Source: Trachythela sp. YZ-2020
Taxonomy: Eukaryota; Cnidaria; Anthozoa; Malacalcyonacea; Clavulariidae
Length of the DNA stretch: 64,000 nucleotides
NCBI GenBank assembly: GCA_016169945.1
Contig: JADLSH010000036.1
Coordinates: 310,001-374,000, forward strand
Direction: 5' to 3'
In this document: piece by piece, positions 10,799-63,480 of the stretch
Numbering within the stretch: position 1 is the first letter of the stretch
How the letters are laid out: every line of letters begins with the position of its first letter
Made by a program: the position numbers and the translations under genes
Notes under the pieces: generated by a model
The model's input: the letters and a program-made list of their open reading frames with translations, nothing else
Database searches by the model: none
Told to the model about the DNA's origin: nothing

Positions 10799-11415
10799 GG
10801 GGGGGTTTAAAAGCCATTATATAAATCATTACTCACTATAAATCATGAAAAATGACAATCAAACAGCTACGAGAAAAGCACGCAACCGGCCAAGAACAAT
10901 TTACATTCAAAGGAAGTAACGACGTGTGTAAGTTGTCAGCATTTCACGCTCTAAATCGAAACTATTAACTTTTGTGTTGATAAATATATCAAAGCACAAA
11001 ACAAATACAGATTTACAGTTACATGTTTTACTTAGTGTAAAGTAACAACTCACTAACAAGTAAAAATCTGGAAAAAGCTAAGGAAAGCCAATGAATTAGC
11101 TAGCCTCTACTAGTTGCGTTATAGTAGCTCAGAATTTTCCCACGCTAGTATAAACAGTACGGTAATTTGCTTATTTGACAAATGTCATTTACAATATCGA
11201 CTGGCCCAAATAGTAACTGTTCCTAAAACGTCACAGGTATAGCCCTATATTAATTTGCGAATAAGACGCAATATATTTCTGAATACAACATATACAACTC
11301 AGACAATAACAAACATAACAATCACAATATTAACAATCAAAGTTAATAATTATCTTAGATAAATTTCGGAACTCTCTGCATTTCATAAGAGTTTATACCT
11401 TTTACTGCATGGACG
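10799..11415. promoter_or_regulatory. 5' flank of the transposase-like gene
   Basis: About 600 bp of AT-rich sequence between the inner end of the left TIR and the first supported exon. It probably holds the promoter and 5' UTR, by position only. No specific core promoter motif is convincing. Confidence 0.25.
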
Positions 11416-14400: not shown

Positions 14401-16163
14401 GCACTACACTGTACGATCAGCCGTGCTTGCCATCAACTCATGGAGATGCCACATTCTCAGGTCTTCAAAGCAGGATCAAGCACGACTCGATGTTCTTAAG
14501 CTTCTCGATGAGAAGACGGTATTCATTGTCAATGATTGGGCAATGAAATTTTTGCCCCAGAGATATCGAGAATCCCAGCAAGACTGGTTTGCAAAGCGTG
14601 GCATTTCGTGGCACATATCTGTTGTACACAGACGTAAATGTGGAAAACTACAGTGGCAGGGTTTCGTACACATCATCCAATCATGTAGCCAAGACAGTCC
14701 AGCTGTGGTTACCGTAATGCAGGATGTACTTAGAGCCCTGAAGCGAGAATATCCCGAAATCACAACAGCCTACTTTCGACAAGACAACGCAGGTTGTTAT
14801 CACTCCGCGACAACAATCCTCTCTTGCCCTAATATAGCAAAAGCATCTGGAGTGAAGATAGCCCGCATTGATTTCAGCGACCCCCAAGGTGGCAAAGGAG
14901 CAGCAGATCGTCTAGCAGCAACATGTAAAAACCATATTCGCGCTTATATAAATGAAGGCAACGATGTACTTACTGCAAAACAACTCGAGGAGGCCATTCT
15001 CTCACATGGAGGTATAAATGGCGTGCGCGTAGTTTCAATGGAGTCCATTGGAAACACACATGAGTGTAACGAGAAAATCCCAGGTATCAGTAAGATGAAC
15101 AACTACAAATTCATGTCGACCGATAAAATCAAAGTCTGGCGTGCCTATGAAGTTGGTAAAGGAAAGGTTATCAAAACTACAAAACCATCGATAGGTAAGT
15201 TAACTAATTAATCAATCAATTCATTCATTCATTCGTCCGTTTAATCATCGATTCATTCACTCATTTTTTCAGAATCTAATTACAACTGGTTGGAATCAAC
15301 CTTTTCATCGGGTGGATTCAAAACCCTTTCTCAAGAACAAGGCAAGACCCAGCATGAAAAAGATCAGGCTGCGGAGAAACGCACGGACGAGAATAACCAG
15401 AGTAACAGGCAAGCGGTCTACACTTGTCCTCACGATGGATGTGTACGTATGTTCCAGAGACTTGGTAATCTGGAAAACCACCTATCGTCAGACAAATGTA
15501 CGAAGACTTTGGAGAAACACACACTTTAGATCTGGCAAAAATGGGCTACAAATGTTCGTTGGAGGATGGTTTGTAATACCAACTTTACAAGCAAGCAAAG
15601 CAGGCCATGAAGGTAGGAATGCTAGTCCCCTTGCAGAAGGCTGGGCTCTTCGAGCATACAAGAAGACATACCGTTTCAGCGAGAAGCAGAAGGATTACCT
15701 TCTGGCCAAATTCGAAATAGGTGAATCAACTGGTAGAAAGGTCGATGCTACTGTTGTAGCCCAGGATATGAGACGTGTTCGCGGTTCTGATGGCGAAAGA
15801 CTTTTTCAAGCGTCAGAGTTTTTAAGTTCTCAACAGATTACCTCTTATTTTTCCCGACTCGCAGCGAAGCGTCGAAAAGCAGCACCGACTGAATCCGACC
15901 TAACTGCTATTGACGAAGAAATTGGCTTCACGAGGGCAAGAAACAGTATAATGGAATCTATCGGCCTTCAGCACCCCATTGTCTATGGCCAATACAACAT
16001 TTGTGCCATGATAGAAAAGAACACTTTAAAAAACGTGAAACTTGGAATGTTACAAGTCATGACCGAGAATCTTTATCTTCAAGTTCCAAAAAAAACAGCA
16101 AGAGCAAAAGCTCCATATTTGAAACTACTGAACGACGCATTCAAAAGCTGCAGCTGTCAGTAG
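11416..16163 (+). pseudogene. Large transposase-like protein, six exons, frameshifted
   Basis: Phase-consistent exons: 11416-11608, 11681-11899, 12463-12551, 12626-13752, 14195-15194 and 15273-16163, all with GT/AG introns; total about 1,170 codons. Exons 2-3 have a Cys/His zinc-binding pattern (CPKHRSEYGIRWRCSRVRC, then CITC). Exon 4 begins acidic and becomes helical. Exon 5 looks like an RNase H/DDE core: FIVNDWAMKF, strand segments, then YFRQDNAGCYHSATT at about 14770-14810, QGGKGAADRLAATCKNHIR and YINEGNDV. Exon 6 has a C2HC finger (CPHDGC..H.....C at about 15425-15500) and a helical C-terminus (RFSEKQKDYLLAKFEIGE ... QITSYFSRLAAKRRK) that may bind DNA. Lesions: a one-base loss near 13396 ends the exon-4 frame at 13441, and at least one further frameshift plus a stop lie between 15520 and 15575. 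I recall multicopy cnidarian proteins of this kind; the catalytic role is inferred. Confidence 0.7.
12083..12236. mobile_element. 154-bp hAT-like MITE in intron 2
   Basis: TIRs CAGTGGCGGCGGAAC and, at the other end, GTTCCGCCGCTATTG (13 of 15 pair), with G- and C-runs just inside that also pair. Flanks GCCTGTAA (12075-12082) and GTCTGTAA (12237-12244) fit an 8-bp TSD with one difference. A CAGTGGCGG terminus and 8-bp TSD are typical of hAT elements. No coding sequence. Confidence 0.75.
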
Positions 16164-16342
16164 TAAGGGATTTTGCTAGATTTAGCTTACAAAAACGTAC
16201 TTTGTGTTATAAAGCCCCAATCAAACGAGGATGAGAGTGCATGAGAGTTGGCAGTCACGGGACCTTTCCCTTACTAATGAAATAACTAAATAAATAAAAA
16301 TGTTTATTATATTACCAATAGTCAAAGTCCCCATTTCTAGTG

Positions 16343-16445
16343 TTTCATTGGTCGAGAGCGTATCACGTGAGAGTGACGAAATTAGGCTGTCTCCCTCGCA
16401 CCCGGGGAATAACGAAAAAAAATCACGTGCGCAATCACGTGAAGA
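16343..16445 (+). promoter_or_regulatory. CCAAT/E-box cluster, copy 2
   Basis: CATTGGTCGAGAG precedes ATCACGTGAG, and two further ATCACGTG boxes follow at about 16422 and 16435. The first pair matches the arrangement at 4821-4845 on the opposite strand. It could be a bHLH/NF-Y type regulatory site carried by a repeat. Function is inferred from motif only. Confidence 0.3.
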
Positions 16446-16690
16446 TGCGACCTTTGGACGACCTTAATAATTGCAATGTCACCTTTATGGCACCTTTATT
16501 TGTGACTGTTAATTGTTTTGAGTGTTGTGTACTTTTTCACATAATTTGGATGCTGTTTAAAGGATCACAATTTAAACTTTCGCTTTAAGTAACTGCAGTG
16601 TTTAATTTAACGTTTTAACAATAAAATATTTCATGTATTTACGTTCACTTGTTCTTTACTTTGTTGTTCTTTGACTATTGGTATATAATA

Positions 16691-16830
16691 AAATACTTAT
16701 TTACTGGGACCTCGGGAAAGCAGTATGTTTTGTGGACCCTCGACCGTCGACGTTTCCCGAGGCGAAGCCGAAGGTCTCGGGTCCACAAAACATACTGTAC
16801 TTGCTCCCAGTAAATACGTGTTAAGTATTT
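16691..16830. mobile_element. ~140-bp MITE with long imperfect TIRs
   Basis: AAATACTTATTTACTGGGA at the left pairs with TCCCAGTAAATACGTG...AAGTATTT at the right, and TATGTTTTGTGGACCC pairs with GGGTCCACAAAACATA. The centre contains CTTCGGC/GCCTCGGG-type sequence. Nearly the whole unit folds into one hairpin. It is non-coding. Confidence 0.75.
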
Positions 16831-17042
16831 GTTGATGTAAATAGTATTTATATAAAATTTAGAAAGATTTAAACTTTTTCGCACGTATGAAAAATGCTTA
16901 ACTGGAAAGCAGCCTTAACGCACGTCGTTTCTTCCTTTGACATGAAAATTGTTATTTACCGGCCGCGTTTTTCAGTTATAGCTGTCTTATTGTTATTTTT
17001 CATCCAACAACGATGTATATAATAGCTTTTATAACGAGGGAA

Positions 17043-17823
17043 AACATGTTTTTGCTCCACAAGTCAGTTTTGTGACGAAATATATGACGCCACATGTTTT
17101 TTTCATGCTCTTATAATTTGCATATTGATGTCAGCGCTTGACATTAATTAGTCACATTTCATGCTTGACCACCTTCCATTAAACTTCGCTCGTCGATTGG
17201 CGCTTTATTTGTAGAAGCTGACTTTCGGTCTAGGGACACTAGAAAAGATTTTCTTTAATGTGACGTATCTATCTTTTCGATTTGTTAGGTACCAGCAGAG
17301 ATATTTGAGTCCAAATTTCGTTAAAAATTTGACCGTCGACAGACCACATAATAAAGAGGGTTTTTATGAGGCTAAAGATATGTGTCGAGGAAATAGTTGG
17401 TAAGAATGCATTAGCAGAAATTAAAGATACAATGTTAAGTCAGTTTCACGCAAAACATGGTTTGGATTAGTTGCTGTCCATGCCGTCTTTCGATTATTTA
17501 AATTGGCTCTCGATTCGTGCATATTAATTAGAAAAAAACAACATTTTTACCGATTTTTTAAACTTTCGAAAATTTTGTAAAAATAAAATCGCGCTGCGAG
17601 TTTTTGATCATGTTTTCTGAAATACCTATGTAGAAGGGTTCTTTTGGTGAAATAAAATCAAGTCTGATTTTTCGCAACTGTCTCGAGTTTCTCGACCGAT
17701 ACAGACATATGCTCTTAAGTATTTCAACTCAAAACTCAGAAAAACTAGCTTGGCTTCATCCTATTATCAGGGTTGCCGTATTGAGTTAGCGTTCCAGTTT
17801 GTATATAGTTCAATGGTTTGAAC
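17043..17823 (-). repeat. Right long TIR of the ~8-kb element
   Basis: Inverted counterpart of the left TIR without the hairpin insertion. Its outer end holds GTTAGCGTTCCAGT and a short unmatched segment (about 17760-17785) absent from the left copy. Confidence 0.75.
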
Positions 17824-30412: not shown

Positions 30413-31353
30413 GACAATAGACAATTTGCATGTTAGCAAAGCATCATGGGAAAAATGGTAACCTTCACTTGCGCGCGAAATGGCCGCCGTGGAGCGAGCA
30501 TTTTGCATGTGAGAAATATCGCTTAATTTTAACACTTTTTTCGTAGCGTTTGAAAATTTTAAAATAAGGAACGTCTTTGTAATGCTATATAAAGTTTGTT
30601 TTGACTCAAGTACAGCGAAATCGAACCAAAAATGGACGAGAAAATTCCTGTAGAAGAACCGAAGAGCGAACAATGTGCTCATAAATACGTTCCGAGAGGA
30701 AGGTTCTTCCCAACATTTTAAGGTGAGTACGCTTAGTAAACATCGGACCGCTTACCATTTTGACCTACAAATATGTGCGTGTTGTTTCTCGATGTATATC
30801 TTGTATTTTGACAACGATCGAGTGTTTCCTGCGGATTTTTTCGCTTGTTGAAATCGACTAATTCATGACAAAATGTCTGTCGATCGTTCGATCAGCATGG
30901 CGCTCAAACACAATGTTTTTAAAGAGACCTTAAAATGTTTTGGCGCGAACTAAAAGCAGTTCAAACCGGTTTTTTCTGCCCCGGCTCCGTTACTTTGTAA
31001 AAACGCCAAAGAGAAAGCATTTTGCCTCTGTTGTCGCCTATTTTTCTGCTTCCTTTGTTGTGGTCGGTTTATTTCCTGTCAAAATAAACAAGTAGGTTTT
31101 TAGTATTAAAATATTAGGCTGTAAATATATTAAATTCGTAGATAAAATTAACGTCGGGAAAACTGTTTTAAATTTGCATAGGTAGTAGAATATAATATAG
31201 TCAATTTTTAACATTTAGTTATTTCTTCAGGCTGGCCGTAAGGATTAAATTTGTAAATAGTAAAATACATAATTAAGGTATAGGTTTAAATAATATAAAT
31301 TTTTTGATGGATATTGAGCCGGGAACTTCATCGGTGGGCGGTGGCAGATAAAA
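30413..31353 (+). repeat. Left TIR of the ISL2EU-type element
   Basis: Inverted copy of 34468-35386, including CCGCCGTGGAGCGAGCATTTT, CGTTCCGAGAGGAAGGTTCTT-type blocks and the start-codon region. A segment around 30925-30960 (GACCTTAAAATGTTTTGGCG) is absent from the right copy. It must contain the promoter for the transposase. Confidence 0.85.
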
Positions 31354-32765
31354 GCGAGACAGAAGCTGCATGTTCTGAAAGAAAATATAAAGGAGGTGGA
31401 ACAACTTGCTGTATTCCAGCATGTAGTACCAACACTAAAAGAAATCCTGAACTCTCATTTTACCAAATTCCAACTGACAAAAAGCTCAGAAAGATGTGGT
31501 TGCATTGGATTGGACTAGCTAATTTTACACCAAACAACCATCACAGAGTTTGCTCAAAGCACTTTGTGGGTGGCAAGAAAACATGTCTTCACAATGTTCC
31601 AACTATAGTGCAAAAACTATTACTGCTCACTCAACCGAAACCCAGAACAACATCTAAATGGAGAAATAGAAACAACACAATTGAAGAGAGTCATGAGATA
31701 GAAGATAAGCCAACAACTAGAGAGGACAGAATTTCAGAACTTGAACAGCTGGTTGAAAACCTTCAGCAGAAAGATAAAAAACAACAAGAAGAGATATCCG
31801 ATCTAAAGGGAAAAGTCGAACAGTGCGGTTTTTCTATAGACCACATTAAAAATAATGATAGCGATATTGAGTTTTATACTGGCTTTTCTAATTATGGTAC
31901 ATTTAAGGCATTTTATGACTATCTTTGCCCTGCATGTGAAAGGTTACAATATATTGGATCTTGGAATGCTACAAAGCCGACAGAATATCGACAAAAATGT
32001 GGACCAAGGAGGACATTATCACCAGAGGAAGAGTTATTCTTGTGCCTTGTAAGATTTAGATTGGGTTTGCTCGAGAGGGACTTAGCGAACAGGTTTAACA
32101 TATCCGCATCGCAGGTGTCGAGAATTTGGGTTACCTGGCTTGATTTTTTATATAGACGTTTACGGTCCATGCCCATTTGGCCTTCTCAAAGTTATGTGAG
32201 AGAAACCTCACCACCAAGTTTCAAGGAGAGTTATCCAAACACAAGGGTCATAATCGACTGCACAGAGTTATTCATTGAAACACCTTCTCAACCAAGAAGC
32301 CAAAGTGCTACCTTTTCAACATACAAAAACCATAACACCGGTAAAGGCTTGATTGGCATTTCCCCAAGAGGAGACTTAACATTTGTTTCAGAACTGTATG
32401 CTGGCAATACATCTGATAAACAACTGACAAATGACTGTGGGATCTTGAAATTATTAGAACCAGGTGATGAAGTGATGGCAGATAGAGGATTTGAAATTGA
32501 GAATGATTTACCACCAGGCGTGTCGTTGAACATACCCCCCTTCCTTGGTGAGCAAGCACAATTTTCGAAAGAGGATGAGATTAAAACTAGGAGAATTGCT
32601 AAATACAGGATACATGTTGAGAGGGCTATCCAAAGAATTAAAAGCTTTCGCATTCTCAAACATGACTTGCAGATATCTATGGCTTCAGACTTAAACAAAA
32701 TTTGGGTTATTTGTTCATATTTGACTTTGTTTTTCAGGCCATTAATTCAACTACATGAAGAATGA
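31307..32765 (+). CDS. THAP-domain DDE transposase (ISL2EU / DDE_Tnp_4)
   Basis: The open frame runs to a stop at 32765 with about 483 codons from 31314. The THAP finger is at about residues 31-100: CCIPAC, F.QIP, KMWLHWIGL, VCSKHF and NVPTIV, a C2CH pattern with the C-terminal VPTI box. A coiled coil (EDRISELEQLVENLQQ) follows at about 135-170, then a helix-turn-helix (LLERDLANRFNISASQVSRI), then the catalytic domain with IIDCTE (~316), MADRGF (~400) and HVERAIQRIK (~440) as the D-D-E residues. The ATG at 31307 shared with the other TIR reads MDIEPGTSSV and then shifts out of frame, because CGGTGGG/CGGTGG is tandemly duplicated at 31331-31343 (7 bp more than the right TIR). So this copy lacks a good in-frame start and may be inactive despite the long open frame. 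Confidence 0.85.
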
Positions 32766-32881
32766 ATTATATGTTACTGTCTATGATAGACTCTAGGCAG
32801 TTCAGTGTTTTTCTGACTTTATTAAGTACAGTTAGTAGTGTGTCTACTATTTAAATTATGTTCAGTGAACATATAATTATG

Positions 32882-34506
32882 TTATAATACAGTAACAGTA
32901 TCTGGCATCAGATAATTAAAATAAAAAGTTGTTAGTTCAGGTAAAGTACTCTTTTTCCATTCAACTTTACTAAAATAAATCCTTTCAACATGAACATCAC
33001 TTACAGTATATACAACAAAATCTGCGAAACACAACTGGCAAATAGCCATAACGCCTTGCACTTGAAAATAATATACATGATTATTTTTTAGACACGGCTT
33101 TCCATTCACTACCTCTAAACAAAATAATTTGTCACTGCATGCATTGATGATACTCATCCCAGATTTTGATGCAGGGAATTTTACCTCCACAGCTCCATAC
33201 ATTGACTCTTCTCTCTTATCCAATATGAGAGCATCTGGACTAGCACCAAGCCATGGCCACATTGGATTGACCACTCAACCACAGGCTGAGCAAAGAGCTA
33301 TACGTGCTCGTTGATCTCATCTTTATATTCATGGTACTGTACCAATGCCTTCTGTTCGTTCTCGATTCCCCATTGACAACTTGTATTCTTTATTTGACTT
33401 GGCTTAGTAATCTTGTTCACAATAGTCTTTGGGTAGATTGTTTTTCTCCTCTTCACTACACAACCAAATAATGATGAAGTCAACTGACATTTTCTCTGTT
33501 TATACCACTCTTCGCACTCATTTTGCTTCCGCGTGTTCTTCTCAATCTCTCTGCATCCCTCATTATTAACAAACAATTTCTCCATAATATGTTTTTCACA
33601 ACTTTCTTTGTCTGGAACACAAGTACAATCTAAATTCTGAGTTAATTTTTTTTAGAATACTAGATCTGACCGCTGTTTGGTTCAGTTTGTCACCCACTTC
33701 CCCTGCCTTCATTATGCGCTGTCTAGATGGTAATTCATTTGCAGTAAACTCACAAGGTTCACAATTGGTGTTGCCTAAGATACCAACCAAATGACAAGTA
33801 CTTCCTGCTTTTTCCAAGCTAGTTTTAAGCTACTCCAAGTCATCCTTTGACACCTTCTCTCTTGTTGAACAGTAGTCCTCCCTCTTCCCTTCTGGCACAG
33901 GGCGTTTACGTCCTTTTTTGTCCTTATCATACGAATCCTGGGGGAAAATCAGGTCCTCGAAAAGCAGGGCTGCTTGTGTTGTGTTCTTTCTAGGGACATA
34001 CCACTGTTGTAATTCCTGGCCCTGGGTGCAGGTTTTATCATCTGGTACATCTGAGAGCCAAGTTCAATATAATCGAGAAGCTGATACAAAGTAGCCGCAA
34101 CATGTTTGCAACAGCCACCAGCACCAGCAGGGCAATAGCATTTTGCATAGGCAATATCTCCTGAATGTTGATCAAGGTGGACATAAACAAGGTACTGTTT
34201 TTTCTTCATTTCTGCATTTACATGGCACCGTACAAGAAAATGGACTGCTTCATTTCCTTTCTTTACATTGGGTTTCACCATAAACTGCCTTGGATAACCA
34301 GCTTTAAATAGTTTGTATCCACTTTTCTTGTGTTTAAATGCCTCGGGAGGCTTGCCATCAGGTGTTTGTTTTGCTTCCAGTACCAAATGGTCTTCCAATT
34401 TTTTGTACGAGAATCCAGGAATAAACTTTAAACTCTTTGTCCAACCATCTCCCAATGCTGCAAAATCTTTATCTGCCACCGATGAAGTTCCCGGCTCAAT
34501 ATCCAT
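32882..34506 (-). pseudogene. YqaJ-type nuclease with SWIM zinc finger, broken
   Basis: The start is ATG at 34506 in the right TIR (MDIEPGTSSVADKDFAALG). The first open segment (to 33949) contains the SWIM finger CYCPAGAGGCCKHVAA at about residue 125. The frame then changes near 33995, meets TAG near 33830, shifts again in an A-run near 33650, and meets another disruption plus TGA near 33275-33300. Later segments hold EEWYKQRKCQLTSSLFG and then PWLGASPDALI...GAVEVKFP, the D and E-x-K catalytic motifs of YqaJ/lambda-exonuclease-like enzymes. In the ISL2EU group this partner protein is thought to help transposition. It converges tail to tail with the transposase, leaving about 115 bp between stops. 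Confidence 0.85.
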
Positions 34507-35386
34507 CAAAAAATTTATATTATTTAAACCTATACCTTAATTATGTATTTTACTATTTACAAATTTAATCCTTAGGGCCTGCCTGAAGATTAAAAAACCT
34601 AATACTATAAATAACTAAATTTTAAAATACATAATACTATATTATATTCTACTACCTATGCAAATTTAAAACGGTTTTCCCGACGTTAATTTTATCTACG
34701 AATTTAATATATTTACAGCCTAATATTTTAATACTAAAAACCTACTTGTTTATTTTGACAGGAAATAAACCGACCACAACAAAGGAAGCAGAAAAATAGG
34801 CGACAACAGAGGCAAAATGCTTTCTCTTTGGCGTTTTTACAAAGTAACGGAGCCGGGGCAGAAAAAATCGGTTTGAACTCTTTAAAAACATTGTGTTTGA
34901 GCGCCATGCTGATCGAACGATCGACAGACATTTTGTCATGAATTAATCGATTTCAACAAGCGAAAAAATCCGCAGGAAACACTCGATCTACATATACTAG
35001 ATATACATCGAGAAACAACACGCACATATTTGTAGGTCAAAATGGTAAGCGGTCCGATGTTTACTAAGCGTACTCACCTTAAAATGTTGGGAAGAACCTT
35101 CCTCTCGGAACGTATTTATGAGCATATTGTTCGCTCCTCGGTTCTTCTACAGGAATTTTCTCGTCCATTTTTGGTTCAATTTCGCTGTACTTGAGTCAAA
35201 ACAAACTTTATAGCATTACAAAGACGTTCCTTATTTTAAAATTTTCAAACGCTACGAAAAAAGTGTTAAAATTAAGCGATATTTCTCAAATGCAAAATGC
35301 TCGCTCCACGGCGGCCATTTCGCGCGCAAGTGAAGGTTACCATTTTTCCCATGATGCTTTGCTAACATGCAAATTGTCTATTGTCC
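34468..35386 (-). repeat. Right TIR of the ISL2EU-type element
   Basis: Mirror of the left TIR, ending CATGCAAATTGTCTATTGTCC. It retains the undisrupted start-codon context (TCATCGGTGGCAGATAAA) that shows the 7-bp duplication in the left copy. Confidence 0.85.
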
Positions 35387-51553: not shown

Positions 51554-51612
51554 AAACGGCCCCTGGGAAATCAGATTATATTAGATCTGAAGGGTTACCG
51601 TTTTCAAATAAG
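51554..51612 (+). terminator. LINE2 3' stem-loop and start of tail
   Basis: AAACGGCCCCTGGGAAA pairs imperfectly with GGGTTACCGTTTT around a second inner hairpin (CAGATTATA/TTAGATCTG), followed by CAAATAAG. It is the same layout as the 3' end of LINE1. Confidence 0.6.
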
Positions 51613-51671
51613 AGTAGTAGTGTATGTGGTTTTCGACCCTTATTTTTGAGAGTGTGCGAGAGTGTGTGAGA

Positions 51672-51845
51672 GTGTGTGACATCATTAACATAATTATGTA
51701 TTGACGTCATAATGATATGCAAGGTGAGTTTGGGCGAAACAGTCATTATGTTGAGTTTTGAGAGTGTGCAACATCATTAACATTCATTAATTATGTATTG
51801 ACGTCATGATGATATGCAAGGCAAGTTTGGGCAAAACAGTCATTA
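51672..51845 (+). repeat. Subterminal ~90-bp direct duplication with CRE-like TGACGTCA
   Basis: Two copies (about 51672-51757 and 51762-51845) of a unit with ACATCATTAACAT, ATGTATTGACGTCATAATG and GGGCGAAACAGTCATTA. Mirrored at about 57993-58166 in the other arm. TGACGTCA is the full CREB/ATF consensus palindrome. It may be a promoter, or an end recognised by a transposition protein. Confidence 0.6.
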
Positions 51846-52616
51846 AGCCGAGCTCAGCATTTTCATCACAAAAAGAGTTAATCCTGACGCTTTTTATAAC
51901 AATAGCTAGACGTTTCTATATATTTTGCCAAGCGTTGTGTTCCAAACACAGTCCGTTTCGACAACGAGTAAATAATATATTCTCGTATCTAATATCACCT
52001 TATACGAAACGCCTTAGACAACTAATATAGCGACGCTTAACCTAGTAAAATATTATTGCCTTATGCGAAATAATAACAAGCAGAAATATAGCTTTCTAAA
52101 ACGAGAAAGGTCTTATAGTCTAAGAAAGGTCTAAAGTCTTATAGAGCAATACAAATATATGTTTGCCAAGGGAATGTTAAAGGGATTTAAACCTTACAAA
52201 GTTTCAAGCGTTTTAGATGTAACAGAATGGGAAAAGCAGTGATTTTTAAGCGAGATTTACAAGCATATACAAACATTGTATATAAACATTTAGCGCTTGT
52301 TAGGTAATTACGGGCAATTAAGATTTTCTAGCTTAAAAATTTGAATAAATTTAGAATATATTATTATCGGACGAGGAAATATTGTACAATGTACATACCA
52401 CACAAACAGAATAAATTTTTAAAACACATTTATTGATTATAATTTCTTTTACAGTGAATCATTGAATCCTAAAATTGAATAATTGAATATCGAGCGAGCC
52501 AACCTCCATATAGAGCGAGCTTATCTTCGAGCCGAACTCTAAGACATAAGGATAGGCCCGAGTCGAGCTCTAACATATAAGGATAGGCCCGAACCAAGCT
52601 TAGTATATATCTCCGA

Positions 52617-52770
52617 TGATATCCTAAGATATTGTATAATATCCTAAGATACTGTATGATATCTTAAGATACTGTATGATATCCTAAAATGATATCCTAA
52701 GATACTGTATGATATCCTAAAATGATATCTTAAGATACTATGTGATATGCTAAGATACTGTATGATATTA
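52617..52770 (+). repeat. GATATCCTAAGATACTGTAT minisatellite, left arm
   Basis: A 20-bp unit repeated about eight times with variants. Non-coding. Mirrored in the right arm. Confidence 0.85.
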
Positions 52771-53186
52771 CAAATTTTGGTCGTATTTTCGCCTATTTAG
52801 CTTTCGTATATTTACACAGCGATAGCGAGGAATCTATTCGACAAAATGGCCGAATCTGTAAACGCTCTTACGAGTGAACTTGATCAAATATTATAAATGT
52901 AAATGATTTTTTGTAATAAAACTTATAAGTATCGTGTGGTTCACTGTGTCCTATTCATTTGCTAGAAAACTAACACAATTCTATACCAGTTGCTATGTGC
53001 TGTTAGGCTGTAACTCATTTGTCAGTCATTAGCGGTAATTAAGATTGTCTAGCTAAAAATTTGAATAAATTGAGAATATATAATTATAGGACGGGAAAAT
53101 ATTGTACAATGTACATTGTTAGTCGATAAATATATACACAGAATTAATTTTTAAACACATTTATTTTATTACTTATTGTCTACAAG

Positions 53187-53585
53187 TTACGTTTGCCACT
53201 TCGTGGACAGTTCTTCTGTGTTGCTACGGTACTTTCGTTTCTTTGTTTTGGATTGTTCGATTTTAGTAGAGGATTTTAATATAGTTTCTTTTTGTGGTCT
53301 ATTCCTAACAGATTTTCTACATTGCACTCTTGCAAAGTTATTAAAGTTTGTTGCCATTTCCGCTTGTCGCTTTATTAGTCTTTCCAGAGTTTTTTCCACA
53401 TGTAATTCTTTATCGTTGGCGATTGCTTCTTGTAAGGGTAGACAAATCCCAATTTTACTCCATTTTAACCATTTAGCACGTTCGTCGGTATCCATACCAT
53501 GGACTTGATCGAGATGATTGGCTAGTCTTACAAGGTTAGTGCTTCCACAACCGAGCACAGGACAGTTCCTCCTTGTACGACCCAT
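53187..53585 (-). CDS. Small C2H2-like zinc-finger protein, left-arm copy
   Basis: 132 codons from ATG (MGRTRRNCPVLGCGS). C-x4-C and H-x4-H (CPVLGC ... NHLDQVH) form one finger at residues ~8-29. A helical basic region follows (KTLERLIKRQAEMATNFNNF), with a Lys/Arg-rich tail (KTKKRKYR) that could be a nuclear signal. Identical in protein sequence to 56235-56633. AATAAA-type signals lie just past the stop. It points outward from the palindrome centre. A DNA-binding role is likely; the exact function is unknown. Confidence 0.7.
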   Translation of the reverse strand: MGRTRRNCPVLGCGSTNLVRLANHLDQVHGMDTDERAKWLKWSKIGICLPLQEAIANDKELHVEKTLERLIKRQAEMATNFNNFARVQCRKSVRNRPQKETILKSSTKIEQSKTKKRKYRSNTEELSTKWQT

Positions 53586-53919
53586 ACTGATCCAGCTCTT
53601 TACTCGATCAATGTTTCTGTGTATTTGAAGTTATTCTAAAATTCATAATGTTTTTATATGGCCCGATTTGATTAGACCCGATTTATGGTTAGGCACATCG
53701 TTGCCCAGTCATGTTGTTTCCGAGATCATTGTGTGTCAATGCTGCTTGGGAAAATTGTCTTACAAAAGTTCGGGAGCTAGCGTTATGAGAAGAAAGTAAA
53801 AACAGAGAATTATATTTTGGGAAACAGATTTATTTCGATTTAGAACTTACAAGTAAAGGTAATATACTTCTAAGAGTATACAGTTTATAGGTAGTTTATT
53901 TAAGCGTGTACAAGACTTA

Positions 53920-54405
53920 TTAAGAGTCATTGTCACTATTTTCGTGTGCATCAGGATAATGTTGGTCTTTGAAAATTCTTTTCAAAAGAAATTTTCTTTT
54001 ATCAATAGCAGCCTCTAATGCTTCTTCAGGGTCAAAGTTATCATCGCTCACAAATGCATCCCTCGTTTCCATAATCTTTTTGTGTATTGGATCTCTCTTA
54101 AGGTCCCTTATCCATAGTAGACGTTCCAGATAAATATTTTGCAAGTCTTCACGAAGCTTTGGTAGGATAAGTAAGTACGCCTTACTCTTAGCTTCTTCTT
54201 CAGCAAGACCATCTGCAGTGAAGTTCTGCGTTAGCTCTTCGAATTCTGCTAAATTTCGTTTTGACACTTCCTCTTTTAAAGGTGCCCATGGATCGCTTTC
54301 ATATTCACCATCTACTTCGCTGTCAGTATTATCTAAACTATCCAAATCACTCTCTGGCGAAGCATCAGTTTCCACTTCATTGTCTGTATTATCTGAATTA
54401 TTACT
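53920..54405 (-). CDS. Acidic helical protein, left-arm copy
   Basis: An open frame of about 160 codons with no in-frame ATG: it opens after a stop at about 54406 with SNNSDNTDNEVE. An ATG nearby (MGRKRKYVPV) is in another frame, so splicing or a frameshift, the same in both arms, must be invoked for a full product. Features: Asp/Glu/Ser-rich N-terminus, then DPWAPLKEEV, EEEAKSKAYLLILPKLRED, YLERLLWIRDLKRDPIHKKI and FDPEEALEAAIDKRKFLLKR. It is mostly helical with no known catalytic motif. I recall similar multicopy proteins in cnidarians but cannot name a function. Confidence 0.65.
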   Translation of the reverse strand, partial: SNNSDNTDNEVETDASPESDLDSLDNTDSEVDGEYESDPWAPLKEEVSKRNLAEFEELTQNFTADGLAEEEAKSKAYLLILPKLREDLQNIYLERLLWIRDLKRDPIHKKIMETRDAFVSDDNFDPEEALEAAIDKRKFLLKRIFKDQHYPDAHENSDNDS

Positions 54406-54785
54406 CTACAGGTACGTACTTTCTTTTTCTACCCATCTCTGCACTGTGATCTGAGTCAGATTCTGCTGCTGAGTTGTGATCTCGCAGAGTATATAGTATT
54501 CCTTTCGCGTCTTCTTATGTTAAACGAACGATTAAGCGATAGCTATAGCTCCCACCTTCATCGAAGCTAACCAGTGAATGTTTCATTTTAAGAACAACAT
54601 AACATTTTATAATTATACTTATACATAATTCATAATGGCCCGAACGAACAGGCCCGATTTTACCCGATTAGGCACTATCAAGCCCGATTATGCACTATCA
54701 GGCCCGATGGCCCGATCCTTGGTCGGGCATACCTCTCCAACCAACATTTTGTGCCTTGTCTACCCTTTTGGCCCGACAGATCTCT

Positions 54786-54916
54786 TTCTTCTAGAGAGAG
54801 GGTTAGGGTTAAAGAGAGGGTTAGGGTTAGAGAGAGGGTTATGGTTAGGGAGAGAGAGGGGTAGGGTTAGAGAAAGCGTTAGAGTTAGAGAAAGAGGTAG
54901 GGTTAGGGTTAGAGAA
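54786..54916 (+). repeat. GGGTTAG/GAGAGAG array, left of the palindrome centre
   Basis: Units such as GAGAGAGGGTTAGGGTTA with many variants. Frames stay open only because the short repeat lacks stops, so no protein is inferred. Pairs with 54957-55078. Confidence 0.85.
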
Positions 54917-54956
54917 GGAATCTTGTACTTTGTAAAATTAAGTGAGAAAACCCGCT
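54917..54956. other. Unpaired centre of the 6.6-kb palindrome
   Basis: About 40 bases (starting AGGAATCTTGTAC) separate the two GGGTTAG/CTAACCC arrays and have no complementary partner. Confidence 0.7.
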
Positions 54957-55078
54957 CTCTAACCATAACCCTACCTCTTTCTCTAACTCTAACGCTTTCT
55001 CTAATCCTACCCCTCTCTCTCCCTAACCATAACCCTCTCTCTAACCCTAACCCTCTCTTTAACCCTAACCCTCTCTCT
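54957..55078 (-). repeat. CTAACCC array, right of the palindrome centre
   Basis: Reverse complement of 54786-54916, with small unit-level differences. Confidence 0.85.
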
Positions 55079-55412
55079 AGAAAGAGATCTGTCGGGCCAA
55101 AAGGGTAGACAAGGCACAAAATGTTGGTTGAGAGGTGTATGCCGAAGAGGATCGGGCCCATCGGGCCTGATAGTGCATAATCGGGGGCCATTATGCCTAA
55201 TGTATAAGTAAAATGTTATGTTGTTCTTAAAATGAAACATTCACTGGTTAGCTTCGATGAAGGTGGGAGCTATAGCTATCGCTTAATCGTTCGTTTAACA
55301 TAAGAAGACGCGAAAGGAATACTATATACTCTGCGAGATCACAACTCAGCAGCAGAATCTGACTCAGATCACAGTGCAGAGATGGGTAGAAAAAGAAAGT
55401 ACGTACCTGTAG

Positions 55413-55898
55413 AGTAATAATTCAGATAATACAGACAATGAAGTGGAAACTGATGCTTCGCCAGAGAGTGATTTGGATAGTTTAGATAATACTGACAGCG
55501 AAGTAGATGGTGAATATGAAAGCGATCCATGGGCACCTTTAAAAGAGGAAGTGTCAAAACGAAATTTAGCAGAATTCGAAGAGCTAACGCAGAACTTCAC
55601 TGCAGATGGTCTTGCTGAAGAAGAAGCTAAGAGTAAGGCGTACTTACTTATCCTACCAAAGCTTCGTGAAGACTTGCAAAATATTTATCTGGAACGTCTA
55701 CTATGGATAAGGGACCTTAAGAGAGATCCAATACACAAAAAGATTATGGAAACGAGGGATGCATTTGTGAGCGATGATAACTTTGACCCTGAAGAAGCAT
55801 TAGAGGCTGCTATTGATAAAAGAAAATTTCTTTTGAAAAGAATTTTCAAAGACCAACATTATCCTGATGCACACGAAAATAGTGACAATGACTCTTAA
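55413..55898 (+). CDS. Acidic helical protein, right-arm copy
   Basis: Mirror of 53920-54405; I see no difference in the predicted protein. The frame opens after TAG at 55410-55412. The upstream ATG at 55382 (MGRKRKYVPV) is out of frame. An AATAAA lies at about 55917, soon after the stop, supporting a real transcription unit directed away from the centre. Confidence 0.65.
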   Translation, partial: SNNSDNTDNEVETDASPESDLDSLDNTDSEVDGEYESDPWAPLKEEVSKRNLAEFEELTQNFTADGLAEEEAKSKAYLLILPKLREDLQNIYLERLLWIRDLKRDPIHKKIMETRDAFVSDDNFDPEEALEAAIDKRKFLLKRIFKDQHYPDAHENSDNDS

Positions 55899-56234
55899 TA
55901 AGTCTTGTACACGCTTAAATAAACTACCTATAAACTGTATACTCTTAGAAGTATATTACCTTTACTTGTAAGTTCTAAATCGAAATAAATCTGTTTCCCA
56001 AAATATAATTCTCTGTTTTTACTTTCTTCTCATAACGCTAGCTCCCGAACTTTTTGCAAGACAATTTTCCCAAGCAGCATTGACACACAATGATCTCGGG
56101 AAACAACATGACTGGGCAACGATGTGCCTAACCATAAATCGGGTCTAATCAAATCGGGCCATATAAAAACATTATGAATTTTAGAATAACTTCAAATACA
56201 CAGAAACATTGATCGAGTAAAGAGCTGGATCAGT

Positions 56235-56633
56235 ATGGGTCGTACAAGGAGGAACTGTCCTGTGCTCGGTTGTGGAAGCACTAACCTTGTAAGACTAGCC
56301 AATCATCTCGATCAAGTCCATGGTATGGATACCGACGAACGTGCTAAATGGTTAAAATGGAGTAAAATTGGGATTTGTCTACCCTTACAAGAAGCAATCG
56401 CCAACGATAAAGAATTACATGTGGAAAAAACTCTGGAAAGACTAATAAAGCGACAAGCGGAAATGGCAACAAACTTTAATAACTTTGCAAGAGTGCAATG
56501 TAGAAAATCTGTTAGGAATAGACCACAAAAAGAAACTATATTAAAATCCTCTACTAAAATCGAACAATCCAAAACAAAGAAACGAAAGTACCGTAGCAAC
56601 ACAGAAGAACTGTCCACGAAGTGGCAAACGTAA
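56235..56633 (+). CDS. Small C2H2-like zinc-finger protein, right-arm copy
   Basis: Mirror of 53187-53585. Starts at ATG 56235 with C-x4-C ... H-x4-H at residues 8-29 and a basic tail. About 335 bp downstream of the acidic ORF in the same direction. An AATAAA at about 56655 follows the stop. Preservation of both frames in both arms suggests selection, recent duplication or gene conversion. Confidence 0.7.
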   Translation: MGRTRRNCPVLGCGSTNLVRLANHLDQVHGMDTDERAKWLKWSKIGICLPLQEAIANDKELHVEKTLERLIKRQAEMATNFNNFARVQCRKSVRNRPQKETILKSSTKIEQSKTKKRKYRSNTEELSTKWQT

Positions 56634-57050
56634 CTTGTAGACAATAAGTAAGCAATAAATGTGTTTAAAAATTAATTCTGTGTATATATTTATCGACTAA
56701 CAATGTACATTGTACAATATTTTCCCGTCCTATAATTATATATTCTCAATTTATTCAAATTTTTAGCTAGACAATCTTAATTACCGCTAATGACTGACAA
56801 ATGAGTTACAGCCTAACAGCACATAGCAACTGGTATAGAATTGTGTTAGTTTTCTAGCAAATGAATAGGACACAGTGAACCACACGATACTTATAAGTTT
56901 TATTACAAAAAATCATTTACATTTATAATATTTGATCAAGTTCACTCGTAAGAGCGTTTACAGATTCGGCCATTTTGTCGAATAGATTCCTCGCTATCGC
57001 TGTGTAAATATACGAAAGCTAAATAGGCGAAAATACGACCAAAATTTGTA

Positions 57051-57226
57051 ATATCATACAGTATCTTAGCATATCACATAGTATCTTAAGATATCATTTT
57101 AGGATATCATACAGTATCTTAGGATATCATTTTAGGATATCATACAGTATCTTAAGATATCATACAGTATCTTAAGATATCATACAGTATCTTAGGATAT
57201 TATACAATATCTTAGGATATCATCGG
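57051..57226 (-). repeat. ATACAGTATCTTAGGATATC minisatellite, right arm
   Basis: Mirror of the array at 52617-52770, with one or two more units. Confidence 0.85.
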
Positions 57227-58248
57227 AGATATATACTAAGCTTGGCTCGGGCCTATCCTTATATGTTAGAGCTCGACTCGGGCCTATCCTTATGTCTTAG
57301 AGTTCGGCTCGAAGATAAGCTCGCTCTATATGGAGGTTGGCTCGCTCGATATTCAATTATTCAATTTTAGGATTCAATGATTCACTGTAAAAAAATTATA
57401 ATCAATAAATGTGTTTTAAAAATTTATTCTGTTTGTGTGGTATGTACATTGTACAATATTTCCTCGTCCGATAATAATATATTCTAAATTTATTCAAATT
57501 TTTAAGCTAGAAAATCTTAATTGCCCGTAATTACCTAACAAGCGCTAAATGTTTATATACAATGTTTGTATATGCTTGTAAATCTCGCTTAAAAATCACT
57601 GCTTTTCCCATTCTGTTACATCTAAAACGCTTGAAACTTTGTAAGGTTTAAATCCCTTTAACATTCCCTTGGCAAACATATATTTGTATTGCTCTATAAG
57701 ACTTTAGACCTTTCTTAGACCATAAGACCTTTCTCGTTTTAGAAAGCTATATTTCTGCTTGTTATTATTTCGCATAAGGCAATAATATTTTACTAGGTTA
57801 AGCGTCGCTATATTAGTTGTCTAAGGCGTTTCGTATAAGGTGATATTAGATACGAGAATATATTATTTACTCGTTGTCGAAACGGACTGTGTTTGGAACA
57901 CAACGCTTGGCAAAATATATAGAAACGTCTAGCTATTGTTATAAAAAGCGTCAGGATTAACTCTTTTTGTGATGAAAATGCTGAGCTCGGCTTAATGACT
58001 GTTTTGCCCAAACTTGCCTTGCATATCATCATGACGTCAATACATAATTAATGAATGTTAATGATGTTGCACACTCTCAAAACTCAACATAATGACTGTT
58101 TCGCCCAAACTCACCTTGCATATCATTATGACGTCAATACATAATTATGTTAATGATGTCACACACTCTCACACACTCTCGCACACTCTCAAAAATAAGG
58201 GTCGAAAACCACATACACTACTACTAATAAGATTAAATAATAAATATT

Positions 58249-58540
58249 AGTAAAATTACATAGGTGATTATTGAAAATTCTCAACGCTGATTGGTTGCGC
58301 TACCTCGGATTAATACGCGATAATCACCTAAAACGTTTTTAAGCCGCTTTTATCGTAAATATTCATATAAAATATTTTTGAAATGTGCATTTTTTATTTT
58401 TTCCAAATAATCACCTATGTAATTTTACTAAAACAATTATTCGCCTCAGGCTCGGTGAATATCGGTGAATAAAAACCTCGACTTCGTCTCGGTTTTTATT
58501 CACCGATATTCACCTCGCCTTCGGCGACTAATTGTTAAAT
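58249..58540 (+). repeat. MITE-like repeat, family A copy 2
   Basis: AGTAAAATTACATAGGTGAT (58249) pairs with ATCACCTATGTAATTTTACT (58415). A second hairpin follows: GGTGAATATCGGTGAATAAA with its complement around ACTTCGTCTC, flanked by ACAATTATTCGCC / GGCGACTAATTGT. Shares a segment with 2236-2398 in reverse orientation. Non-coding. Confidence 0.7.
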
Positions 58541-58554
58541 AATAATAATAATAA

Positions 58555-59395: not shown

Positions 59396-59536
59396 TGTTG
59401 TAGCTATTTGTACTCTTAGCGTATGGTATTTATGACTTTTGGCGTATGGTATATTACGCCGTATGTTGTGTTTTCATATGATTAAAAGAAGTTGTACGCA
59501 CACGTTGTTTGTGTTTATTTGATCCGTATTACAACA
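59396..59536 (+). repeat. 5' LTR (141 bp)
   Basis: Begins TGTTGTAGCTATTTG, ends CGTATTACAACA. Contains TCATATGATTAAAAG and GTACGCACACGTTG. Nearly identical to the 3' LTR apart from a few substitutions and one 10-bp length difference. Confidence 0.93.
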
Positions 59537-59556
59537 TTTGGCGACGAGTTCGAAGC
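59537..59556 (+). other. Putative primer-binding site
   Basis: TTTGGCGACGAGTTCGAAGC starts right after the 5' LTR, at the position where a tRNA 3' end would anneal. The matching tRNA was not determined. Confidence 0.4.
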
Positions 59557-59560
59557 AGTT

Positions 59561-62500
59561 ATGGCTTCAAAAGGACCCAAGTTAAAAGTACTACCCTTCG
59601 ATCCGCACGGAGACCGTTTAGATCTCGGGAAACGATGGTAAAAATGGTTTGAGCGTTTCGAAAGAGACTTAAAGTACAACGGATGTGATCCGGCTAAAAA
59701 AACCCGATGTGGCTAAAATGGCATTGTTAATTTACGCGGGAACTGATGTTGAGGATTTGCATGACACTTTACCCGAGCCTGTTCGACCCGAAGGTATGCA
59801 AGAATCGGCATGGACCGAGTACGAACAGTCAAAAGCTAAATTGGGAATTCATTTTTCACCGAAGCGTTGCAACGATTTTGCGTTGTTTGAATTAATGAGG
59901 ACTAAGCCCGAGCCATTGGAGAGTGTCACGAATTATGCAATGCGTCTACGAAAGGCGGCCAACAAGTGCGATTTCACAAACTGGTCTGCAGCAAAAATGA
60001 TCAAAAGCCTCATCATTAGCAATATGAGCGATGATTCACTCCGACTCAAATTCTTACAGAAGGACAGAACACTTGACGAAATCCTTGACATTTCAAGAAA
60101 AAAAGAGGATGCTGTGGCCCGGAGCAAAATCATGGACAGAGAGCCTCGGGATCAAGGGGTGGTTGCCAAGGTGGGCGTGGGTGTTAAGAAGGACCCCCCT
60201 GCATCAAAGGAAGAGCAGTGCAACAAGTGTGGACACGAGAAGCATTTTTCTGGTTCGGAATGCCCTGCTATTTCAAGAACCTGCAACTATTGCAAGAAGA
60301 AGGGACACTATGCCAGTAAATGTTTCAAAAAACAGCAAGAAATGGCAGGTGCCAACCTGGTCGACGAAGACCATGGAGAAACATCAGGAAGTGACACTGA
60401 TTCAGACACCGATACGTATGAGGTATCTAAGATTGTTAATCATGTCAACTTGCGGAAGAAACCGTCACTGATGAGAGTCCTTACTAATGGCCAGGAAGTT
60501 CTGTGGCAAGCGGATACAGGGACTCAGCGGAACGTTTGGGATAAGAAACAGTTCCACAATTTCGAGAAGAAGTGCAGAAAGGGAACAATCTCATTGTCGC
60601 CAACAAGCACGAAACTGTTTGCATATGGTAGTGACAAACCACTAACAGTCATCGGCTCTTTTAAGGCAGTCTTAGCAGCAGGCGAGCACCAGTTCAACAC
60701 CGAGATATATGTTACATCGGAATCATCGGCATACCCGTTGCTATCCGAACAGTCCGCAAGAGCACTCCAGTTGATCCATTACAATGGACGTTTTCTCGTT
60801 CAACAGGTTGCTGAGCCGAGTCAGAAGGTATTAGCCGCTGCTAAACGCCAAGAGATAGCAGACATGATCTCTGCCAATCCAGAAGTGTTCACAGGCAAGA
60901 TCGGCAAAGCGAAGACGAAGGAAGTGTCTCTAATGATAGATGATATAGTACAGCCAGTGGTCCAGAAACAATGCCGGGTACCTTGCAACCTCATGGATCG
61001 TGCTGAAAACAAGATAAAAGAGCTTCTCAGTCAATATATAATAGAGCGGGTACCTGATGACCAACCCAGAAGCTGGGTAAGCCCTCCAGTCATCGCACCA
61101 AAACCAGAATCCAAGGACATCCGTTTCTGTATCGACATGCGCATGGCAAATAAAGCAATACAACGGCCATACACACAGATACCAACCATGGCTGATATCG
61201 TGAACAACTTCCAGGGCGCAGAAAGGTTCACCAAGCTGGACCTGAAAGAAGCCTACCACCAGTTCGTGTTGGATGAATCATCACGTAACATCACAACATT
61301 CTATGGCCCGGATGGTCTCTACCGATACAAGCGCCTGAATTATGGGACCAAGTCAGCACAAGATATCCTCCAGCTAGAGATGCACAAGATGCTGTCCGGC
61401 ATCCCAAACCAAGTAAACATTGCAGACGATATCCTGATTGGCGGGTCAGTTGAAGAACATGATGCCACACTTGAACAAGTTCTGTCAGCAATGAGAAGCA
61501 ATGGTGTAACAGTGAACCCCTCGAAGTGTGTATTTGATGTAGAAGAAGTAAGTTTCGTCGGATTGATGTTCAACAAGCATGGTATCAAACCCGACCCAAA
61601 GAACGTCAGAAATCTGCAGGAAGCAACCCGACCAACGAGTAAAGCGGAGTTACGATCGTTTCTTGGAATGGCAGGTTTCAGTGAGCGTTTCATCCCGAAT
61701 TTCGCAAGTATTGTCTACCCACTGAGGCAGCAAATGAAAGAGACATGTTGGTCATGGGACCACACATGTGAAGAAGCATTCGTGAAACTGAAAGAGTCGC
61801 TCAGTGAGTACTCACTACTTCATCACTATGTTATCGGTCGGGAAACGGAACTCGTAGTGGATGCAAGTATCACAGGCCTCGGTGCTGTTCTTGTCCAGCG
61901 AGCGTCAAAGGCGGAACGCTTCCATCCAGTCATGTATAAGTCGCGTTCTCTGAAAGAAGTCGAAACTAGGTATTCTCCAACGGAGCGAGAAGCGTTGGCA
62001 GTTCGATGGGCATGCAAGAAGCTCAGAAAATACCTGCTTGGCGCTCCGAAATTTCGCATTGTTACGGATCACCGCCCGTTAACCTACATGTTTCACTAGT
62101 TGTGTGGGGAGCTGCCACCTAGAGTTGAAAAGTTTGTCATGGACGTGCAGGAGTATGAGTATCAAGTTGTCTACCGTCCAGGAAAGACATGTATTGCGGA
62201 TTACATGTCACGGCACCATGTCAAACGCGAGGGATCAAGTCGAGCATCCGAGATCGAAGCAGCCGTGCACAGTGTTATCGAGTCAGAATGTTGTCATGCC
62301 CTAAACGAGCATAGAGCAGTGTCAGTTGTGGATATCAAAGAGGAAGGGGAAAGATGTGAGGTCTACCAGCGACTTATCAAAGCTGTCCAATCAGGGGACA
62401 GCGACGATGATGGGGAACTGAAACCTTATTTCGCACCGGAAATCAAGCATGAGCTGAGCGTCATTGATGGAATTGTATGCAGAGGTTCCCGTGTTGTTGT

Positions 62501-63293
62501 GCCTGTTGCTTTACAAAGCCAGGTTGTCGAACTGAGTCACAAAGCGCACCAAGGGATGAGCAAGACGAAGAATCTCCTGCGAACATTTTGTTGGTTCCCA
62601 GGTATGGATAAAGCAGTGGAGACCCAGGTACGAGAATGCCTTCCATGCCAAGCCGTATTACCAGCAAGGAACGAACAGCCAGTCAAACCATCAGAGCTTC
62701 CAAGGGGACCCTGGCAGTATGTAGAAATGGATTTCCAGGGCCCTTACCCTAACGGAGAGTATATCTTCATAATGATCGACCGCTACAGTCGATGGCCAGA
62801 GATGGCGTTCTTCCGGAACGCACCTACTGCGAAGACTACAATAGCAGCCATGCACTCGATATTTGCAAACAAAGGTGTCCCAGAGGTGTGTCAATCGGAC
62901 AATGGCTCACCATTCCAGTCACAAGAACTGGCACCACATACCTTATGCGTCGACGATACTGTAATCGTGAAGCAGAAAAAGACCAACAAGTTAACGCCAA
63001 CGTTCAACCCTACACCTCTACGCATTACTGGTGTCAATGGATCAATGATAACAGCTAGAGAGATCGACGGGACGTGGGCGACCACGCGGGATGCTTCTTA
63101 TTTCAGAAAGATCAAGAACAAACCGACCAAGGACGATGGAGTGACGAGTGACAGCGATACAGCAGACGAGAACGACGGAGCAGAACCTGAAGCTAAGGAG
63201 CGGGAAGTGCATGGAAATGGCCACGAACATATGCGACGGGAATCGCGGCGTAAAACTCGGATACTCGGGTATCTGAAGGACTATGGCATTTAG
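59561..63293 (+). pseudogene. Gypsy gag-pol polyprotein, broken
   Basis: ATG at 59561 (MASKGPKLKVL), an early TAA at 59639, a frameshift near 59700, then open from 59685 to TAG at 62097 and onward in the same frame to 63293. Order: capsid; two zinc knuckles (CNKCGHEKHFSGSEC; CNYCKKKGHYASKC); protease (QADTGTQRNV); RT (FTKLDLKEAYHQFVLDESS, NIADDILIGG, PSKCVFDVEEVSFVG); RNase H (VVDASITGLGAVL, TEREALAVRWACKKL, TDHRPLTYMF). After the TAG: chromodomain-free linker, integrase zinc module (HKAHQGMSKTKNLL...CLPCQ) and core with MDFQGPYP and QSDNGSPFQ. The core then jumps to PHTLCVDDTVIVK, so the part with the third acidic residue is deleted. No env. Two stops, one frameshift and an integrase deletion make this copy non-autonomous. 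Confidence 0.9.
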
Positions 63294-63328
63294 GCTGGGT
63301 TGGGACATTTATATTTGGTTGGGAGAGA

Positions 63329-63480
63329 TGTTGTAGTTTATTTGTACTCTTAGCGTATGGTATTTATGACTTTTGGCGTATGGTATATTTCGCCGTATGT
63401 TGTGTTTTCATATGATTAAAAGAAGTTGTACGCACACGTTGTTTGTGTTTATTTGATCCGTTTTGATCCGTATTACAACA
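63329..63480 (+). repeat. 3' LTR (152 bp)
   Basis: Matches the 5' LTR, with an extra TTTTGATCCG (a 10-bp duplication of neighbouring sequence) near its end and a few substitutions (for example TATTTCGCC versus TATTACGCC). Confidence 0.93.

Follow-up and report, generated by a model that had tools for sequence, protein, structure and literature searches.

The window analysed here, a stretch of 64,000 nucleotides from the anthozoan Trachythela sp. YZ-2020 (assembly GCA_016169945.1, contig JADLSH010000036.1, positions 310,001 to 374,000), contains a 6.6-kb element that is a nearly complete palindrome with a C2H2-like gene and an acidic helical gene in each arm (Table 1). We consider it probable that this element is a non-autonomous Polinton/Maverick derivative that originated by fold-back and is moved in trans by the enzymes of full-length Polintons. 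It has the (AGT)3//(ACT)3 terminal motif with terminal inverted repeats (TIRs) and the 6-bp target-site duplication (TSD) of a Polinton. As in a non-autonomous derivative, its core genes are lost and its ends recur on an element of autonomous type in this genome. The genes that mark an autonomous Polinton (PolB, RVE integrase, ATPase and cysteine protease) were not among its open reading frames (ORFs) of at least 80 amino acids (aa), with Pfam run on the two genes only; besides these genes, the ORFs were their antisense counterparts and two central ones of low complexity.

The sequence-only reading, an earlier annotation of the window, had described arms of about 3.3 kb around a 40-bp centre, arms that differ at several non-coding places and an AATAAG TSD. 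The arm alignment bore out the palindrome and the differences, and exact AATAAG copies lie outside both ends. Comparison of 51613-54607 with 55209-58225 revealed 5 substitutions over ~3.0 kb, together with 5 gaps that total 24 bases, 20 of them a single tandem-repeat unit, and larger indels separate the arms in the central ~600 bp. The self-complementarity of the whole element was 96.8%.

The host assembly (578 Mb, 396 contigs) was searched with the terminal 200 bp of the element, where the earlier reading had proposed the terminal 100 bp, and further copies with the same ends and 6-bp TSDs were found. With 40 scored among 1,016 first-look candidates, the matches numbered 44, of which 2 were the window's own and 4 were partial and lay inside other ends; 32 of the 40 non-partial matches made inverted pairs spaced 2.3 to 33 kb. 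The survey left out five single ends and two of the pairs, C197 and C255. Seventeen elements, the window element included, were read to both ends (13 whole and another four, 13-14 kb long, in two stretches apiece), 16 reached through the window-end search and one, L029, through the acidic-gene search; L028 (one end) and L030, L031 and L032 (not both ends read) stand outside this count. All 17 had (AGT)3-type ends, with C in the first triplets of L029. Sixteen were flanked by an exact TSD 6 bp or more in length (AATAAG, CACGTC, TATATG, ACCATG, GACCCT, AGTATG, AAGGTA, CAGATG, ATCGTA, GACCTA twice, GTCCTA, TACGTA and, read by eye in L029, GAATAC), two of the 16 sitting in simple repeats where their length is uninformative. 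Eight of the 17 were palindromic over about 85% or more (the window element, L011, L015, L026 (100%), L017 (97%), L029 (90%), L012 (86%) and C230); L009, L013, L014 and L016 (47-62%) and C267:2026655-2039781 (3.4-kb arms) had intermediate mirror content, and C345, C30, L010 and L027 had ordinary TIRs. Because the ends, the TSD length and the mirror structure recur elsewhere in the genome, the pattern is far beyond chance.

A search for full-length elements with the same ends and with polymerase and integrase genes identified C345:292053-305979 and C30:5421618-5435579. C345 is a full-length Polinton of 13.9 kb with 313-bp TIRs and (AGT)3 ends, and C30, with (AGT)3 ends as well, is co-linear with it and carries the same integrase and polymerase. 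Identity to the window element over the terminal ~355 bp was about 93% for C345 and about 90% for C30, and both are bounded by the 6-bp TSD GACCTA in different flanks. C345 encodes an rve integrase (E 6e-15), an adenovirus-endoprotease-like ORF (Peptidase_C5, E 0.004), a GRF zinc finger (E 3e-19), a C2H2 frame and, behind it, an ATPase-like frame (by eye), and a polymerase region of three ORFs, the middle one matching DNA_pol_B_2 (E 7e-4) and the other two having no match. We take the ATPase-like label from a motif, presume the capsid genes from position only, and take the last polymerase ORF to be one from its Pfam-matching neighbour and from motifs. Neither the capsid-candidate ORF nor the last polymerase ORF had a notable match in the PDB, and the integrase alone matched when seven C345 proteins were compared with PHROGs. 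In the genome, 135 matches to the integrase, which fall into a near-identical group and one at ~59%, and 103 to the last polymerase ORF were obtained; among the typed matches, 37 polymerase-integrase pairs lay 5-12 kb apart in the relative orientation of C345, including the mirrored- or recombinant-looking C52, C267:2026 and C106. These shared ends and the common TSD length support the earlier proposal of a palindromic derivative dependent on Polinton enzymes, which would act in trans. A Polinton polymerase and integrase were also observed on the window's own contig, at C275:253430-261076, about 100 kb from the palindrome.

In the proposed mechanism, linear protein-primed Polinton DNA would fold back, whether on a nascent strand or on a displaced one, and be copied, and the product would carry the same end on both sides, here the right end with accessory genes. 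The polymerase of a full-length Polinton would then copy the palindrome from its two identical ends, its integrase would insert it, and the arms would stay alike through transfer of sequence from one to the other. We infer the fold-back origin, the protein-primed copying and the action of the enzymes in trans, and, from the missing genes only, helper dependence for replication and packaging. The repeated terminal triplet alone suggests protein priming, since such triplets fit the sliding or jumping-back start that the accessible part of PMC3480470 describes as general in protein-priming systems.

Either Polinton end can be mirrored, the left in C230 and the right in C267. C230 consists of a C345-type left half present twice in mirror image (98.6% to C345), with halves that match over 6,363 and 77 bp at 99.5% or better and with the TSD GTCCTA. 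Its arms differ by 20 substitutions (15 near the centre) and twelve gaps of 1-3 nt, and its polymerase copy (88%) contains nine stops, for which small indels would be the simplest explanation. C267:2026655-2039781 has the right end on both sides and the TSD TACGTA. Mirrored ends predict inverted orientations of close gene pairs, and tandem pairs need another cause. For the acidic gene (150 scored matches of 1,336 candidates, all 150 typed), 29 of the 30 close pairs within 10 kb were (-,+), 1 was (--) and none was (+,-). The corresponding counts were 14 (-,+) and 4 (++) for the C2H2-like gene, 3 (+,-) and 1 (++) for the integrase, and 2 (+,-) for the polymerase. Orientation was typed for 62 of 135 integrase, 49 of 103 polymerase and 63 of 151 C2H2-like matches; the integrase and polymerase typing covered neither the ~59% group nor distant copies nor most fragments, and the C2H2-like typing omitted weak matches. 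It is unlikely, yet deserves weight, that the palindrome of a Polinton derivative formed by recombination of two replicating Polinton molecules with no single-strand fold-back: the long right-end arm of C267:2026655-2039781 faces a shorter inverted right end far from a common centre, as that process would allow, but in C230, the sole young centre read letter by letter, only a 4-nt loop separates the paired arms, matching the fold-back prediction.

The arms of C230 were co-linear with one Polinton end, the left half, at the identity given above, and those of L012, L015, L017 and L029 were so in part, over 0.6-1.3 kb. L012 and L017 hold 0.9-1.3 kb of the Polinton right end at about 96%, and L015 and L029 hold about 0.6 kb of it in pieces (94-96%), with outer parts at 87-93%. 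Given the right-end ORF remnants (by eye) and these related palindromes, the window arms would consist of the Polinton right end plus added accessory genes. In L030 (C135), a Polinton capsid-side stretch (99.1%) is followed by a C2H2-like gene, a window-type arm and then a second such arm, and in L012 the acidic gene lies inside an unmirrored centre. The centres of L015, L017 and L029 share an (ATGACTW)n inverted heptamer array of variable length, which was not found in the window centre, and their inner arm boundary is the same as the window's; the common array and boundary suggest descent from one palindrome. In all 4 palindromes compared, the closest sequence to each arm was its own partner (own partner versus best other arm: window 100 versus 98.5; L029 100 versus 99.2; L017 99.7 versus 99.2). 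Furthermore, the 5' region of the acidic gene is 23 nt shorter in the window than in its relatives, and this loss occurs in both arms and in 0 of 5 relatives (L012, L029 and L030; L015 and L017 by length). To explain the likeness of the arms, we prefer a process in which one is copied onto its partner, which a strand that anneals to itself would permit.

A lower probability attaches to formation of the palindromes within the chromosome, either by head-to-head insertion of two elements or by a post-integration fold-back or inversion that duplicates one end. Chromosomal fold-back is reported to yield long inverted repeats in other systems, and L030 (C135) and L032 are complex rearranged copies. 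However, the palindromes read to their ends have their mirror ends at a single TSD pair, and L015, L017 and L029 combine the same centre type with different TSDs, as if they had moved as palindromes. A fold-back or MITE-like (miniature inverted-repeat transposable element) DNA transposon, unrelated to Polintons and using another transposase, is very improbable: small size and long inverted arms recall fold-back elements generally, but the (AGT)3 ends, the terminal ~355 bp at about 90-93% and the TSD length are common to the integrase- and polymerase-bearing elements, and these shared termini largely refute such a transposon. We give least credence of all to a sequencing or assembly artefact from a palindromic read, since, although the twelve short gaps between the C230 arms have a size possible for long-read errors, the structure recurs in many contigs, a 20-bp unit and central indels distinguish the two window arms, and the unlike flanks with a matching TSD speak against such an artefact, as the earlier reading had judged from the arm differences.

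Several observations weigh against a Polinton derivative of fold-back origin. The window arms align with the full-length elements at the nucleotide level only over the terminal ~355 bp, and the inner arms are linked to Polintons through related palindromes and by-eye protein remnants. No full-length Polinton with both window genes was found among the loci examined; C135 and C106 have window-type genes near an integrase or polymerase, in loci that look recombinant. The last C345 polymerase ORF, which served as the genome query, itself has no Pfam or PDB match. L016 has no TSD, and tandem integrase pairs occur at C106 (++) and C390:10389439/10398164 (--; by eye, ~59% group). The array common to the centres could mark a hot spot of fold-back instead of being inherited, the own-arm advantage of L015 is tiny (98.7 versus 98.6), and the likeness of the arms could reflect separate recent formation of each palindrome.

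Both genes are transcribed outward in each arm, as confirmed from ORF coordinates and strands. The sequence-only reading had also taken them to be intact in both arms, which holds for the C2H2-like gene, open in both, and fails for the acidic gene, damaged at its 5' end. The acidic ORF of the window has 151 aa, a GTG first codon and no ATG start, and the copies in L029 and L030 have 179 aa and an ATG start; a window ATG at 55382 opens a frame that hits a stop after 11 codons. We found 107 homologues for the C2H2-like protein and 138 for the acidic protein (the best 120 of the 138 listed). The C2H2-like protein has a distant match (38-48% over 40-63 residues) between the C345 polymerase and the ATPase-like frame, and its gene keeps an open frame in the window and at certain loci but is interrupted by stops at many others. 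By manual count, 117 of 150 acidic-gene matches in the genome are free of stops. The AlphaFold model of the acidic protein was all-helical, with a predicted local distance difference test score (pLDDT) of 82.8, and that of the C2H2-like protein was poor (pLDDT 65). Among five acidic-gene copies in all, the ratio of nonsynonymous to synonymous substitution rates (dN/dS) was 0.24-0.36 for 5 of 6 within-subfamily pairs and undefined for the sixth, window-L030 (1 nonsynonymous change, 0 synonymous); against L031 it was 0.16-0.19, with dS saturated (about 2) between subfamilies. Judged by its many interrupted copies, the C2H2-like gene seems less well maintained than the acidic gene, itself damaged in the window.

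The C2H2-like and acidic types are fused in one protein, P0106, and by eye 4 contigs are apparently common to the two sets of homologues, so the two genes also occur together elsewhere. A second acidic subfamily (52-54% identity) has its own N-terminal C2H2 finger and is mirrored in L031 and L032, where the reading did not reach the element ends; its surroundings include an ATPase (Pox_A32, E 7e-7), GRF and weakly Bcl-2-like ORFs. The weakly Bcl-2-like ORF lies at 1106-1489 in L031 (Pfam E 0.009 for this copy), beside the ATPase ORF, and at 1843-2211 in L032, beside the GRF ORF. Scans of viral contigs revealed no relatives of either window protein; the acidic family was absent from GTDB genomes and the acidic protein from phage records. 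Neither window protein had a convincing Pfam match, and their families had only weak zinc-finger matches. Against PDB sequences, the C2H2-like protein matched ETV6 fusion constructs (best E 2e-4) and the acidic protein gave insignificant matches only. It is possible, though on the doubtful side, that these elements are self-propagating Polinton satellites, with the palindrome as the replicating form, the arms kept alike whenever it is copied, and the acidic protein selected and acting on helper or host. An identical origin at either end, and a strand able to self-anneal, would favour the palindrome.

Table 1. Coordinates of the palindromic element and its parts, numbered from the first letter of the window
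Feature	Position	Strand	Remarks
Whole element	51613-58225		6.6 kb, nearly complete palindrome, arms ~3.3 kb
Left TSD AATAAG	51607..51612	.	exact copy of right one
Right TSD AATAAG	58226..58231	.	exact copy of left one
(AGT)3 terminus	51613..51621	+	Maverick-type end motif
(ACT)3 terminus	58217..58225	+	
Palindrome left arm	51613..54915	+	
Palindrome right arm	54956..58225	-	
Asymmetric centre	54916..54955	.	40 bp
Subterminal direct repeat	51667..51845	+	~87 bp, 2 copies
Tandem array, left arm	52616..52768	+	~20-bp units
Tandem array, right arm	57051..57223	+	~20-bp units as in left arm, one extra unit
Polinton right-end coding remnant FAYLAFVYLHSDSEESIRQN ... SVNALTSELDQIL	52773..52896	+	mirror at ~56943-57066; by-eye match to C345 right-half ORFs
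C2H2-like ORF, left arm	53187..53585	-	132 aa; outward transcription
C2H2-like ORF, right arm	56235..56633	+	132 aa; outward transcription
Acidic helical ORF, left arm	53920..54375	-	GTG start, 5' end frameshifted versus relatives
Acidic helical ORF, right arm	55443..55898	+	5' end altered identically to left arm

The element resembles vertebrate Mavericks, whose commonest end motif is (AGT)2//(ACT)2 and whose intact members have 6-bp TSDs (PMC8097293, accessible part), in its (AGT)n//(ACT)n ends, TIRs and 6-bp TSD, and polymerase, integrase, protease-like and ATPase-like sequences are present in the full-length elements related to it in this genome. In contrast, the same part of that source gives Mavericks a size of 12.7-24.6 kb and inverted repeats of 46-1,447 bp, whereas the window element measures 6.6 kb, is an inverted repeat of 3.3 kb throughout and has no core gene among the ORFs examined. 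No description of a palindromic Polinton or Maverick was found at title and abstract level among the best-ranked matches, with few subscription journals covered. Defective inverted-duplication forms of protein-primed linear DNAs occur in adenovirus and yeast linear plasmids, and a title cited in PMC11071308 concerns a deletion derivative of kalilo in both hairpin and duplex form. Like them, the window element has lost the core genes, and it would have one end mirrored and a fold-back centre; unlike them, its family is integrated with TSDs, is present in many copies and has some ORFs open. No paper on such adenovirus or yeast-plasmid products appeared among the literature matches listed. Fold-back elements such as Galileo also have very long inverted arms, but their ends, TSD and enzyme class differ from those of the window element. 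Mitochondrial linear plasmids serve here as an analogy only. With virophages and satellites (PMC4028283, seen in part) the element would share dependence on the machinery of another; it differs in that no capsid or replication gene was seen in it and no particle is known. IS3EU/GingerRoot elements, which have 6-bp TSDs and TA..TA or TG..CA ends in the accessible part of PMC10045372, were rejected because the termini of the element are AG..CT. IS481EU was considered and set aside.

Other features were observed in the window. The stretch 10125-17720 is element-like: its inverted ends measure about 0.8 kb (87%), and two of the ORFs that they enclose had no Pfam match. At 30413-35385, inverted ends of about 0.9 kb (92%) flank two ORFs, one for a DDE_Tnp_4 transposase at 31494-32765 and one with a SWIM domain at 33949-34506 on the minus strand. 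Gypsy-like ORFs (by eye) lie at 59405-63464 between 126-bp direct repeats that are 98% alike, perhaps short long terminal repeats. A short repeat with copies 84% alike occurs at 58432-58543, just right of the palindromic element, and at 2267-2346, near the window start; the copy beside the element forms a hairpin.

Polintons are thought to be protein-primed in replication and virus-like, and to our knowledge free replicating forms are hardly known. Many mirrored part-genomes, each with one TSD pair, are the expected leftovers of defective protein-primed replication after integration, so that the mirrored copies would provide a countable record of Polinton self-copying. They would also offer a test case for satellites of an endogenous virus-like element and would explain an abundant class of palindromes that might be taken for assembly errors.

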